In this document: in pieces, positions 19,333-22,946 of the stretch | Layout: each line of letters opens with the position of its first letter | Numbering within the stretch: position 1 is the first letter of the stretch | Virus record (IMG/VR): IMGVR_UViG_3300030406_001148 | Coordinates: 1 to 24,108 of that record | DNA: 24,108 nucleotides | Source of the DNA: a virus | Direction: 5' to 3' (one strand) | Notes under the pieces: model-generated | The model's input: the letters and a program-made list of their open reading frames with translations, nothing else | What the model was told of the DNA's origin: nothing | The model's database searches: none | Translations under genes and position numbers: made by a program

Positions 19333-19674
19333 ATGGCAAATCCTGGGACTTATAATTTAGTTCTCCAAAGGAGAGCAGATCATTCCTTTGACGTAAATTT
19401 AAAGGATAGTAATAATGCCAATGAAAATTTAACAGGAAAAACCATTTTATCTCAGATATGGAATAAAGATAGAACAACAAAATTAGCAGATGTAACTATT
19501 ACTGTGACAGATGCAACTGGGGGTGATTTTACATGGAAAGTAACTGACACGCAGACTGCAAATATGACAGATAATACTTATCAATACGATATTCTAAAAA
19601 TCGAACCAAATGGTGATCGAGAATATTTTATAGAGGGTACAATATTTATGTCTGAAGGATATACAGCACAATGA
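19333..19674 (+). CDS. Ig-like / BppU-type baseplate or fibre adaptor domain protein
   Basis: 113 residues. YNLVLQRRADHSFDVNLKDS, LTGKTILSQIW, DVTITVTDATGGDFTWKVTD, TYQYDILKIEPNGDREYFIE and GTIFMSEGY form a strand succession typical of the N-terminal domain of baseplate upper proteins and of free-standing fibre-associated proteins in marine phages. The likely role is attaching the following fibre to the tail. Coupled to it by an ATGA overlap. It starts 8 bases after the previous stop, with no room for a full Shine-Dalgarno. Confidence 0.55.
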   Translation: MANPGTYNLVLQRRADHSFDVNLKDSNNANENLTGKTILSQIWNKDRTTKLADVTITVTDATGGDFTWKVTDTQTANMTDNTYQYDILKIEPNGDREYFIEGTIFMSEGYTAQ

Positions 19675-21308
19675 CTTCTGTTAATGTTACTGAAAACAAA
19701 TATAGTGTTAGCGTAACTGAAGGAGCGACAACTGTTGTAACAGCAAAAGCACCTGGTCCACAAGGTCCAGGTTTTCCTGATGGTAATTTAGGTGATGTTA
19801 CATCATCAAATACAGGAGCTAGTGTTGTTGTTAATAGTGGAGCGATAACAAATGCAAAAGTTAATGATAGTGCTGCGATAGCTGGAACAAAGATTAGTCC
19901 TGATTTTGGTAGTCAGAATATAACAACTACTGGAAATGCGGTGTTTGGTGGTAACTTGACCGTTTCTGGAACTACCACAACTATTGATACGACTACGCTT
20001 AGAGTTGAAGATAAAAATATTGAATTAGGTAAGGTAGGAAGTCCAACAGATATAACTGCTGATGGTGGCGGTATTACTTTATTAGGAGATACGAACCACA
20101 CATTTAATTGGTTAAATGCAACCGATAGCTGGACAAGTAGTGAACATATTGGTTTACCTGATAATAAAAAATTACAACTAGGAGATTCGCAAGATTTGGA
20201 GATATTCCATGACGGATCTTCTCATTCTTATTTTAGAACAACTGCTGGTGGGATTATTGTAAAAAGTTTTGCAGATTTACAGTTTAGAAGTGATAATATT
20301 CAAATAAAAAGTGCAGCGTTAGAAAATTATATTACTTGCACAGCAAATGGAAGCGTGGAATTGTACTACGATAATGTAAAGAAGCTTGAGACTACAAATA
20401 ATGGTGTAACAGTTAATGGAAATTTGTTAGCATCGTCTGATGGAAATACAAGTATTAATATATTAGATACTGGGCATGGATTTAGTGCTTCAACTCTTTC
20501 ATTATCAAATGGTGGTCGAGATTTAGACATAAAAGCACCGAAAGATATACGTTTAAAACCTACGGATGGTGAGAGTGGGATAGTTATTGAAGCCAACGGA
20601 CAAGTAGAACTATATTACGACAATGTGAAGAAGGCGGAGACAGCTAGTAACGGCTTGAGTGTTGAAGGAACTGTTACTTGTGATGATATTTTGCTTGCTA
20701 ACTCAATAACACATGAAGGTCAAACTAATACAAAAATTTCATTTGATGCCACTGCAATGAACTTTATATCAAATGGAGTTCAAAGATTTTCGGTTACACA
20801 ATATGCAGTATTTATGCAACAAGGTTTTAAATTAGCTTTTATTGCTGCTTCTGGTGAAAATCCTTACATAAGATCTACTGGGACTAATAATGGTGACTTA
20901 GAAATTGGTCAAGGCACAGAATCAATGGCTCAGTTTAAACGTGATGGTGCTGTGGAGTTGTACTACAATGGCGTTGAAAAGCTCAAAACGCAATCTTGGG
21001 GTGTAAATTTAACTGGAACTTTAAATACAAACAACGTAACTTCTCAGGGTTATTCAATTACTAATGGTGATTTTTTACCTAGTTCAGATAATAATAATGA
21101 TTTAGGTTCATCTACAAAGCGATTTTCAACTCTACATTCTGTTTCTTTAAATACGGGTGATATAAATATGTCAAACCTCAACAATAATGGTAATGATGTT
21201 GATGGGAGCAAAGGTTCTTGGTCTTTACAGGAAGGTGCTGATGATTTGTTTATTATTAATCGTGTAAGTGGTAAGAAGTATAAATTTAACCTTACAGAGA
21301 TCAATTAG
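19671..21308 (+). CDS. Tail fibre protein with ELYYDNVKK repeats
   Basis: 545 residues. Residues 1-35 hold an attachment strand (VNVTENKYSVSVTEGATTVV) and a short collagen-like GPQGPG. A NAVFGGNLTVSGTTTTIDTT, TLRVEDKNIELGK, TADGGGITLLGDTNHTFNWL and DSQDLEIFHDGSSHSYFRT region follows (residues ~85-190). I recognise this block in fibres of many marine cyanophages and pelagiphages. Three repeats beginning VELYY occur at residues 229, 312 and 428. The end (SSTKRFSTLHSV, ADDLFIINRVSGKKYKFNL) is typical of fibres lacking an S74 domain. Function: probable second or third receptor-binding fibre. It starts at an ATGA overlap, and its stop overlaps the end of the antisense gene at 21301-21429 by eight bases. 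Confidence 0.75.
   Translation: MTSVNVTENKYSVSVTEGATTVVTAKAPGPQGPGFPDGNLGDVTSSNTGASVVVNSGAITNAKVNDSAAIAGTKISPDFGSQNITTTGNAVFGGNLTVSGTTTTIDTTTLRVEDKNIELGKVGSPTDITADGGGITLLGDTNHTFNWLNATDSWTSSEHIGLPDNKKLQLGDSQDLEIFHDGSSHSYFRTTAGGIIVKSFADLQFRSDNIQIKSAALENYITCTANGSVELYYDNVKKLETTNNGVTVNGNLLASSDGNTSINILDTGHGFSASTLSLSNGGRDLDIKAPKDIRLKPTDGESGIVIEANGQVELYYDNVKKAETASNGLSVEGTVTCDDILLANSITHEGQTNTKISFDATAMNFISNGVQRFSVTQYAVFMQQGFKLAFIAASGENPYIRSTGTNNGDLEIGQGTESMAQFKRDGAVELYYNGVEKLKTQSWGVNLTGTLNTNNVTSQGYSITNGDFLPSSDNNNDLGSSTKRFSTLHSVSLNTGDINMSNLNNNGNDVDGSKGSWSLQEGADDLFIINRVSGKKYKFNLTEIN
20355..21020 (+). repeat. Three VELYYDNVKK-type repeats in the third fibre
   Basis: Copies begin at 20355 (VELYYDNVKKLETTNNGVTV), 20604 (VELYYDNVKKAETASNGLSV) and 20952 (VELYYNGVEKLKTQSWGVNL). 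Each is ~25 residues long, with unrelated sequence between them. The first two differ at few residues but use several different codons, so they are old duplicates or are under protein-level selection. Confidence 0.75.
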
Positions 21309-21429
21309 ATTTTTCTGTCATCTGACGAGTCATAATTCCTAAAGTTATATACAAAGGAGCTAAAGCCATAATTCCTGTGAAGGTTATAATGGTGACAGGT
21401 ATTAATGCTTTTGCAAACGCATCTCTCAT
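21301..21429 (-). CDS. Small single-pass membrane protein on the minus strand
   Basis: 42 residues from ATG 21429 (57 or 60 if ATG 21474 or GTG 21483 is used). Starts MRDAFAKALIPVTIITF, has one hydrophobic helix over residues ~8-32 (ending LAPLYITLGIM), and ends with the polar RQMTEKSN. Codons on this strand (aga, gca, tta, gga, act) match the phage's plus-strand genes, which an antisense shadow would not normally do. The plus strand has no other coding candidate at 21309-21427. Its start codon shares the palindrome CATG with the plus-strand gene at 21428, and its stop overlaps the third fibre's end. A holin-like or other lysis-related role is conceivable but not shown. It is the only minus-strand gene I support here. 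Confidence 0.5.
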   Translation of the reverse strand: MRDAFAKALIPVTIITFTGIMALAPLYITLGIMTRQMTEKSN

Positions 21430-21640
21430 GTTAAATAAAATCTCATCTGTATTATCTATTTTATCTTTTATCATTAGCGTCACAACTATTGCTGCTGGAT
21501 ATGCAGGTTATCGTTACATTACAAGTCCACAGTTTGAAGCGATGATGATGGAGAAGGTTATGGATAGTGTAGGTAAAATATTACCTAATCAAATAGATAA
21601 GAAACTACCAAAGGTAACAGGTCCAATGCTGCCTTTATGA
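21428..21640 (+). CDS. Small membrane protein, YxxSPxFE family, copy 1
   Basis: 70 residues from ATG 21428. A membrane helix spans residues ~6-28 (VLSILSFIISVTTIAAGYAG), followed by YRYITSPQFEAMMMEKVMDS, VGKILPNQIDKKLPK and a C-terminal PMLPL. I recall similar short proteins in marine cyanophages. The topology suggests a short N-terminus and an amphipathic C-terminal region. An upstream ATG at 21377 would add 17 residues antisense to the minus-strand gene. I prefer 21428 because the added part has no homology to the paralog next door. It is coupled to that paralog by an ATGA overlap. Function unknown. Confidence 0.6.
   Translation: MLNKISSVLSILSFIISVTTIAAGYAGYRYITSPQFEAMMMEKVMDSVGKILPNQIDKKLPKVTGPMLPL
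21458..21485 (-). promoter_or_regulatory. Candidate minus-strand promoter for the antisense membrane gene
   Basis: On the minus strand TTGTGA (21485-21480), 16-base spacer, TAAAAT (21463-21458). The -10 matches five of six positions. Transcription would begin near 21451, about 20 bases before the ATG at 21429. It lies within the plus-strand gene 21428-21640. Chance match possible. Confidence 0.25.
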
Positions 21641-21960
21641 CAAAATTAGAACGCACACCTAGTCGTATAAGAACACGTTTTATAGCTGTATTAGCATTAA
21701 TAACATCAGGAATAACTTTTGGATCGGGATTTATGGTGTTTTTATATATGAAAAGTCCAGCTTTTGAAAATCAATTACTTGGACAGGTAATGAAACACAT
21801 GGATTGGATTATTGCCGATGAATTTGAAAAGCAGATAAAGAAACTAAAGCCAAGACCCGTAGCAGATGCTAACGATCCAAATAAATGGTTTTGGGATTAT
21901 ATAGAGCAAAGAAATAAAGAGCATATAGAATGGGAAACAAGAGGTAAATGGGAACAATGA
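21637..21960 (+). CDS. Small membrane protein, YxxSPxFE family, copy 2
   Basis: 107 residues. The basic N-terminus (TKLERTPSRIRTRFIA) leads into one membrane helix (residues ~16-38, LALITSGITFGSGFMVFLYM). MKSPAFENQLLGQVMKHMDW and EFEKQIKKLKPRP line up with copy 1 (ITSPQFEAMMMEKVMDS; IDKKLPK). The C-terminal ~40 residues (ANDPNKWFWDYIEQRNKEHI, then EWETRGKWEQ) have no counterpart in copy 1. A tandem paralog pair, overlapped by ATGA on both sides. Positive-inside reasoning places the N-terminus in the cytoplasm. Function unknown. Confidence 0.65.
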   Translation: MTKLERTPSRIRTRFIAVLALITSGITFGSGFMVFLYMKSPAFENQLLGQVMKHMDWIIADEFEKQIKKLKPRPVADANDPNKWFWDYIEQRNKEHIEWETRGKWEQ

Positions 21961-22124
21961 ACTGCTGGCACTGTAAAACTGAATTAATCTGGGGTGGAGA
22001 TCATAGTTTAGATGGTGAAGATTATCCATTAAGGTCTGGAGAGTACAGTATGGTGACTAATCTTTCCTGTCCTAAATGTCATTCTTTTGTAGAAGTATAT
22101 TTACCAAGAGATGCCTACGATTAA
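21957..22124 (+). CDS. Small zinc-ribbon protein (CWHC ... CPKC)
   Basis: 55 residues, too short for usual ORF cut-offs. It starts MNCWHCKTELIWGGDHS, has an acidic middle (DGEDYPL), then VTNLSCPKCHSFVEVYLP. The two CxxC knuckles (Cys3/Cys6 and Cys39/Cys42) are spaced as in a zinc ribbon. I recognise this as a common small protein of marine T4-like and other cyanophages; its function is not established as far as I know. ATGA overlap with the previous gene, and taATG overlap with the next, so it is part of the coupled block. A nucleic-acid or protein-binding role is a guess from the fold. Confidence 0.75.
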   Translation: MNCWHCKTELIWGGDHSLDGEDYPLRSGEYSMVTNLSCPKCHSFVEVYLPRDAYD

Positions 22125-22348
22125 TGATATTTGGATTTTTAAAAAAACTAATTAAACATTATATTGATAAACTTGTGCATTGGTTAAGGGTAAAAAAATT
22201 ACAACTTGAACTCGATAATGAAATAAAAAAGTATCACGATAGTTTTGAAAAGAAACAAGAGCCTAAAATAAGAGAAGTTGGAAAATTTGGAGAAGATGGC
22301 TGGTCTATTTCTATTGGAGATATAGATGACGAAGATACTAAAAATTGA
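22124..22348 (+). CDS. Small amphipathic / coiled protein, unknown
   Basis: 74 residues from ATG 22124, sharing one base with the zinc-ribbon gene's stop. The N-terminal half is hydrophobic-basic (IFGFLKKLIKHYIDKLVHWL, then RVKKLQLELDNEIKKYHDSF), suggesting a membrane-surface helix followed by a coiled coil. The C-terminus (GEDGWSISIGDIDDEDTKN) is acidic. A longer frame exists from 22076 but its added part is antisense-like, Cys/Arg-rich and overlaps the zinc-ribbon gene, so I reject that start. No family recognised. The end overlaps the next gene by 23 bases. Confidence 0.55.
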   Translation: MIFGFLKKLIKHYIDKLVHWLRVKKLQLELDNEIKKYHDSFEKKQEPKIREVGKFGEDGWSISIGDIDDEDTKN

Positions 22349-22946
22349 AATAAAAGAGGTTTACGTCCCAAAAATAAGATTATGGGAAGTACAGCCACCA
22401 ATATTAGATACTATTTATAAACCAGTTGTAGATATTCCAGGATGTGTTGATGCTCATAGAAATAATTTAACAGGACTGATAAATGAAGATGAACTAGGCA
22501 CATATCAAGCCTGTGGTACATTTAATATCCCTAGCTTTGAACCGCTTGAATATAATCCTGCAAATTTTATATATACAACACCTGCAAAACAACAGGAACA
22601 AAAACAACAGCAACCTCCACAGCAAAAACCTCAGATAACACAAAAGAAAAAAGATGAAGAATTAGAAATACCACCCTGTCCTAGTAACAAAGAGCAAAAA
22701 ATTGGAGATTTTCGTAACGATAAAAAGCTGGAACGTGTTATTGGCTATGAAAGAGGGCAAAATGGGATTGAATGTATCACTTTGTATGAAGACGTACCGT
22801 TCATCTCCCAATACATTCCAAGTTTTAAGCAGTTTACTGGGGTTTTTAGTCTTGCTTTGGTCGGCTGTTCTGCTCCGATCATTCTTAATTTAGTAAAACC
22901 AGTAGTAAAAAATGTGATAAAGAAGCTAACAAAGAAAAAAGAATAA
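22326..22946 (+). CDS. Tail-anchored membrane protein, IRLW...GCV.AHR family
   Basis: 206 residues. Residues 1-80 contain EVYVPKIRLWEVQPPILDTI, VDIPGCVDAHRNN and a polar YQACGTFNIPSFEP. Residues 86-112 are Gln/Pro/Lys-rich linker (EQKQQQPPQQKPQ). Residues 115-165 contain PPCPSNKEQKIGDFRND, ERVIGYER and CITLYEDVPFISQYIPS. One hydrophobic helix lies at ~168-190 (FTGVFSLALVGCSAPIILNL), with a very basic tail (KPVVKNVIKKLTKKKE). I recall this layout in a conserved cyanophage protein of unknown function. It appears to be C-tail-anchored with the basic end cytoplasmic. Cys residues at 40, 63, 118 and 150 could pair in the periplasm. A role in lysis or in the virion cannot be told apart here. Confidence 0.65.
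   Translation: MTKILKIEIKEVYVPKIRLWEVQPPILDTIYKPVVDIPGCVDAHRNNLTGLINEDELGTYQACGTFNIPSFEPLEYNPANFIYTTPAKQQEQKQQQPPQQKPQITQKKKDEELEIPPCPSNKEQKIGDFRNDKKLERVIGYERGQNGIECITLYEDVPFISQYIPSFKQFTGVFSLALVGCSAPIILNLVKPVVKNVIKKLTKKKE

Follow-up and report, generated by a model that had tools for sequence, protein, structure and literature searches.

Evidence for an overlooked antisense gene of a small membrane protein, with predicted face-to-face promoters, in Prochlorococcus-type siphoviruses

Layout and surroundings of the locus

In the window, a 24.1-kb viral record, a short minus-strand frame is squeezed between a tail-fibre-like gene and a cassette of small plus-strand genes, and its start codon arises from the same palindrome as that of its plus-strand neighbor. 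This layout raises the question of whether the frame is a real antisense membrane gene, as the initial annotation proposed, and, if so, how its expression would relate to that of the neighbor. The features considered are as follows.

21301..21429, minus strand: antisense gene, 42 codons, single-helix membrane protein (core ALxPVTIITF..ALAPLYxT)
21427..21430: CATG palindrome, source of both ATG start codons (2-nt divergent overlap)
21428..21640, plus strand: head-to-head partner, 70 codons, N-terminal membrane helix, phrog_568 family
21385..21390, plus strand: TATAAT, predicted -10 box of the plus cassette, in minus codons 14-15
21397, plus strand: putative start of plus transcription (A at +1), 31 nt ahead of the plus ATG
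21458..21485, minus strand: TTGTGA-16-TAAAAT, candidate minus promoter within the plus gene, with a predicted start at about 21451, some 22 nt before the minus ATG
19671..21308, plus strand: tail-fibre-like gene upstream, convergent on the minus gene; 3' ends overlap by 8 nt
21637..21960, plus strand: following cassette gene (107 codons), with an N-terminal hydrophobic stretch and weak similarity to the plus partner
22326..22946, plus strand: cassette gene, phrog_570, C-terminal hydrophobic stretch and basic tail

Inspection of the coordinates verified the two ORFs, both ATGs and the common CATG, as well as the gap of 119 nt between the tail-fibre stop (21308) and the plus ATG (21428), which the minus ORF fills while overlapping the tail-fibre ORF by 8 nt and the plus ORF by 2 nt. 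The translation of the minus ORF (21301-21429) begins MIKEAFLKALMPVTIITF... and reads in full MRDAFAKALIPVTIITFTGIMALAPLYITLGIMTRQMTEKSN, followed by the stop. In most relatives the convergent overlap between the tail-fibre gene and the minus gene measures 4-17 nt, and in most loci the minus gene is overlapped by its neighbors at both ends. Longer, GTG-started versions present in the window (minus to 21483, plus from 21377) are not conserved in relatives and were rejected, both ATGs being backed.

The partner is followed by small cassette genes and, beyond them in most relatives, by a convergent gene that lies on the strand of the minus gene at a distance of about 1 kb. The products of 21428-21640 and 21637-21960 are weakly similar (E 0.001 in a single comparison) and are possibly tandem duplicates. 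Farther into the cassette, a zinc-ribbon-like small gene at 21953-22003 shares 88% DNA identity over 51 bases with pelagiphage HTVC027P, which suggests exchange between phages of different marine hosts.

Coding character of the minus-strand frame

A tblastn search with the minus peptide retrieved six phage records at 62-68% identity, namely MED4-117, MED4-184, P-HS2 and marine virus AG-345-A17, some of them in both a GenBank and a RefSeq copy. In the Prochlorococcus siphoviruses MED4-117 and MED4-184/P-HS2 the gene lies antisense in a gap without annotation, and our literature searches found no earlier description of it. Viral contigs were scanned twice, with 399 and 414 confirmed relatives, and the best 80 of each scan were retrieved. 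Matches in genome contigs were limited to three (a Prochlorococcus single-cell contig equal in length to a viral record, a Maricaulis MAG contig with phage-like sequence, and one match of 11 residues), and a cellular origin of the gene was rejected. The contig binned as Maricaulis sp. (L091) contains this phage locus and probably belongs to a cyanophage, placed in the wrong bin.

The substitution pattern was analyzed in 121 distinct core sequences. Most variation falls in third positions (pS 0.57, pN 0.15, pN/pS 0.27) and no core contains a stop, while all 124 distinct minus genes start with ATG and are 41-45 codons long. The only competing frame is an in-frame upstream extension of the plus gene, with which the minus frame has its wobble positions in common when the starts overlap as CATG. 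The mean BLOSUM score of replacements was +0.71 in the minus frame vs. -1.03 in the competing one; the N-terminal extension of the plus frame, which is interrupted by an in-frame stop in every relative except one, was discarded. The minus ORF is thus under purifying selection with free silent sites, and its start and stop are stable. The initial annotation had named conservation in viral databases with synonymous bias as support for a gene, and both were found among the approximately 400 viral-contig relatives. On this comparative evidence we conclude that the minus-strand 42-codon ORF is a real, overlooked gene.

Head-to-head geometry, the partner and the peptide

When relatives were collected through the minus gene, the start of a divergent partner lay within 10 nt in all 146 loci with enough sequence; the overlap was an exact CATG in 90 of 126 distinct loci, and most others had CATATG or CAT-N3-ATG. 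To avoid selecting on the minus gene, we also searched with the partner proteins P0002 and P0004 as queries and accepted minus ORFs of at least 28 codons starting near the partner ATG. Results showed an antisense single-helix ORF of 31-54 codons head to head with the partner in 159 of 160 viral loci, with an exact CATG in 130 of the 159 and the remaining starts within about 11 nt. The strict pattern of the window family matched only 38 of the 160 loci; the reading that most of them lack the minus gene was overturned by the diverged antisense ORFs that the remaining loci carry. Relatives that conserve the plus frame but not the minus one had been named beforehand as evidence against the gene; with both present in 159 of 160 partner-anchored loci, this check did not refute it. 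The opposite-strand start codons overlap, and this divergent arrangement is conserved in relatives.

The plus partner matches phrog_568 with E 1.2e-7 for the window and 4e-21 for MED4-117. We consider the PHROG label "plasmid stability", which also appears in RefSeq phage records, doubtful for a one-helix membrane protein. In one class of loci (L032, L041, L065, L087 and similar) phrog_568 is replaced head to head, with CATNNNATG spacing, by an unrelated proline-rich protein of 161-169 residues (MDEIY...) that has a C-terminal hydrophobic stretch and basic tail; no convincing copy of phrog_568 was found nearby. A strict two-protein partnership is thus not universal, as the partner in this MDE class is unrelated to phrog_568.

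The window peptide has one hydrophobic stretch (Kyte-Doolittle over 19 residues, maximum 2.0), in agreement with the single membrane helix read from the sequence initially, and was modelled as a single helix spanning residues 2-41 (pLDDT 91, pTM 0.48; alignment of 13 close relatives), of which only the helix is informative given the pTM value. A strong hydrophobic stretch occurs in all 136 distinct antisense peptides of the partner-anchored set, and a loose P-x-Y-like motif in 133 of the 136, a frequency slightly favored by the count, which prefers candidates with the motif where several starts exist. In an alignment of 12 diverged members only M1, P25 and Y27 are invariant. The antisense peptides of L154-L313 fall into groups marked by PVTIITF, APISLM, SFTSVL, SHSLIIS, LFVLLTIIGIT, LPLTTIIVF and others, whose common features hardly extend past one helix and PLY; the plus partner, in contrast, can still be recognised. 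One antisense ORF (L166) resembles the window through ALAP and continues with unrelated sequence, as if recombined or truncated.

Pfam searches returned no family above the cut-off for either product. The window peptide matched neither phrog_17581 nor phrog_35614; the 12 diverged members gave two weak matches to phrog_17581 (best E 0.0055) and one to phrog_35614. Profile matches in the PDB to MAP3K12 and cytochrome b (E 0.8) were judged to be due to chance. Most likely, the conserved PLY-containing helix would dock on another membrane protein. Our best guess, based on a weak argument, is that this would be a host membrane protein rather than the plus partner, since the minus core varies less than the partner (62% and 41%, respectively, between the window family and the MED4-117 types) and the gene persists beside an unrelated partner.

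Predicted opposed promoters, competing readings and known systems

Codon usage in the minus gene points to a plus-strand promoter lying within it. At codons 14-15 (Ile-Ile) ATT-ATA is used almost without exception, and at codon 11 (Pro) CCT is used in 120 of 121 sequences, a choice that Ile and Pro do not show at other positions of the gene. Read on the plus strand this gives TATAAT, six bases and then an A, an arrangement spaced like a -10 box and its start site; the A at the predicted +1 is present in 121 of 122 sequences despite being the silent third position of the minus Pro codon. Of 107 relatives, 98 contain TATAAT, whereas synonymous codon shuffles gave 20 +/- 3.8; when one sequence per cluster was used the hexamer was found in 14 of 16 vs. 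2.9 expected; either TATAAT or TATTAT is present in 120 of 122. Among the diverged groups the hexamer is kept in D, E and F (in group E at another codon position, 17/17) and partly in C, and is not kept in group B (7/42; L168, L245, L248 and others). No consensus-like -35 was seen for this promoter. By these sequence statistics, the plus -10 is preserved by codon choice within the minus gene.

The minus gene probably has its own promoter in the first codons of the plus gene, for which the statistical support is weaker than for the plus -10. A -10-like element was reported initially, and a promoter-like pair, TTGTGA-16-TAAAAT, is present at 21485-21458. Taken by itself, the -10 shows no excess on the minus strand (0 perfect sites vs. 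approximately 8 expected), so the prediction rests on the score of paired hexamers. The best -35/-10 pair scored 8.62 on average vs. 7.95 (sd 0.14) in synonymous shuffles (z 4.7), with z 0.1-1.7 in three control regions (the plus strand and codons 31-60 serving as controls). In 10 of 16 clusters, where 4.0 were expected, the minus -10 lies at a distance of 26-31 nt from the plus ATG, and the partner-anchored set gave a weaker result in the same direction (8.73 vs. 8.13, sd 0.23). All shuffles kept the amino-acid sequence fixed and relatedness was handled only through clustering, so that significance is approximate, the clusters being treated as independent. Judged from sequence, the proposed face-to-face architecture would combine a strong plus -10 with a moderate minus pair.

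These data lead us to favor, with a probability of roughly 60%, an overlooked antisense small-membrane-protein gene in Prochlorococcus-type siphoviruses that has face-to-face promoters and tied expression with its partner. The gene would overlie the cassette promoter, in the region that separates the late tail genes from the cassette of small membrane proteins, with its own promoter inside the first codons of the plus gene. As the predicted promoters face each other, the 5' ends of the two mRNAs would overlap over about 55 nt, a stretch that takes in both start codons. Collision of RNA polymerases, promoter occlusion or antisense pairing of the 5' ends could then tie the expression of both membrane proteins, fixing their ratio or their order or, possibly, letting one exclude the other. 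In this arrangement, expression that is coupled or antagonistic is plausible. The switch-like expression suggested by the initial annotation fits the predicted promoter embedded in each opposite gene and the predicted 5' overlap, but fits poorly with the proline-rich partner in one class of loci. Only tentatively would we go further and regard the pair as a control unit in which start-overlapping genes carry each other's promoter and antagonism through transcription and the pairing of 5' RNA would set a timing or fate decision during cyanophage infection.

It is unlikely, in our estimate, that the gene is real but expressed by read-through from the opposing operon (last gene phrog_848, about 1 kb away), with no promoter of its own and no switch. 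The same gene family, phrog_848 in MED4-117, ends 0.4-3 kb upstream on the strand of the minus gene in 96 of 101 loci, and the unenriched minus -10 is also consistent with read-through. Against it stand the paired -35/-10 signal and the terminator-like hairpins with T-runs found in the gap before the minus gene in some relatives (e.g., L012, L107), though a terminator scan of MED4-117 found no hairpin.

We attach a similarly low probability to a moron-like cargo gene (e.g., for superinfection exclusion) with its own promoter, in which the start overlap would reflect compactness and carry no regulatory meaning. Such genes are alike in being small membrane-protein genes antisense within late genes, and both the position beside the tail genes and the promoter-like pair would suit one. 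A moron would be expected to occur sporadically and to have its own promoter and terminator, whereas this gene shows core-like conservation, is found in essentially all relatives with the partner (159/160), and in most loci has neighbors overlapping both ends, with no room for a terminator of its own.

Still less probable is that the two head-to-head proteins act on each other, as holin and antiholin or toxin and antitoxin, with the overlap keeping their ratio. The near-obligate pairing with phrog_568 in the partner-anchored loci would fit this, both proteins being small with one helix, and siphophage lysis genes often come after the tail fibres. The annotation of MED4-117 includes no holin, endolysin or other lysis gene; a search for a holin family gave no Pfam match and no PHROG with a lysis label for the pair. 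However, the minus gene persists head to head with the unrelated MDE-class protein, and its core is more constant than the partner. Cyanomyoviruses carry the same phrog_568 family as the plus partner, but in the four loci checked a same-strand neighbor precedes it and no antisense membrane ORF was found.

That no protein is made and that conserved regulatory DNA or RNA merely happens to be open on the minus strand is hardly credible: a promoter element is indeed embedded in the gene, but the substitution pattern (third-position variation, stop-free cores, conservative replacements) already contradicts this, as do 31-54 codon ORFs with the same hydropathy in several diverged sequence groups.

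Our favored reading, a coding antisense gene with opposed promoters, brings to light a small-protein family that the annotation of cultured cyanophages has missed but that is widespread in ocean viral contigs. Antagonism within the pair, if it exists, would make it a compact control element in viruses of a host that ranks among the most abundant photosynthetic organisms. The closest known parallels are in temperate phages. Pe/Pc of P2 is a face-to-face promoter switch. Coliphage 186 pR/pL likewise combines two opposed promoters and overlapping transcripts in one compact control region, and transcriptional interference of pR on pL has been described (PMC7708051). The genes of 186 and P2 encode DNA-binding regulators that decide between lysis and lysogeny, whereas both products here are one-helix membrane proteins; neither has a Pfam family that would indicate a DNA-binding repressor, and a membrane helix dominates both. 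In the cyanophage pair, moreover, the start codons themselves overlap. P-HS2, a cultured siphovirus of MED4, has been described as a lytic cyanophage (PMC7852597), and the proposed reciprocal coding of promoters within genes is directly testable in this P-HS2/MED4 system.

The pair also resembles prokaryotic divergent overlapping genes, in which the 5' ends of two divergent genes overlap. Divergent overlaps make up about 1% of prokaryotic overlaps, and all long ones checked were misannotations (PMC2478687); their under-representation has been attributed to regulatory elements that probably must fit there (PMC2174442). In contrast, the 2-nt overlap of the cyanophage pair is kept across hundreds of loci, a rare case of a divergent start overlap maintained by selection, with predicted promoters embedded in the opposite genes, and codon choice in each gene appears to be constrained by the promoter of the other.
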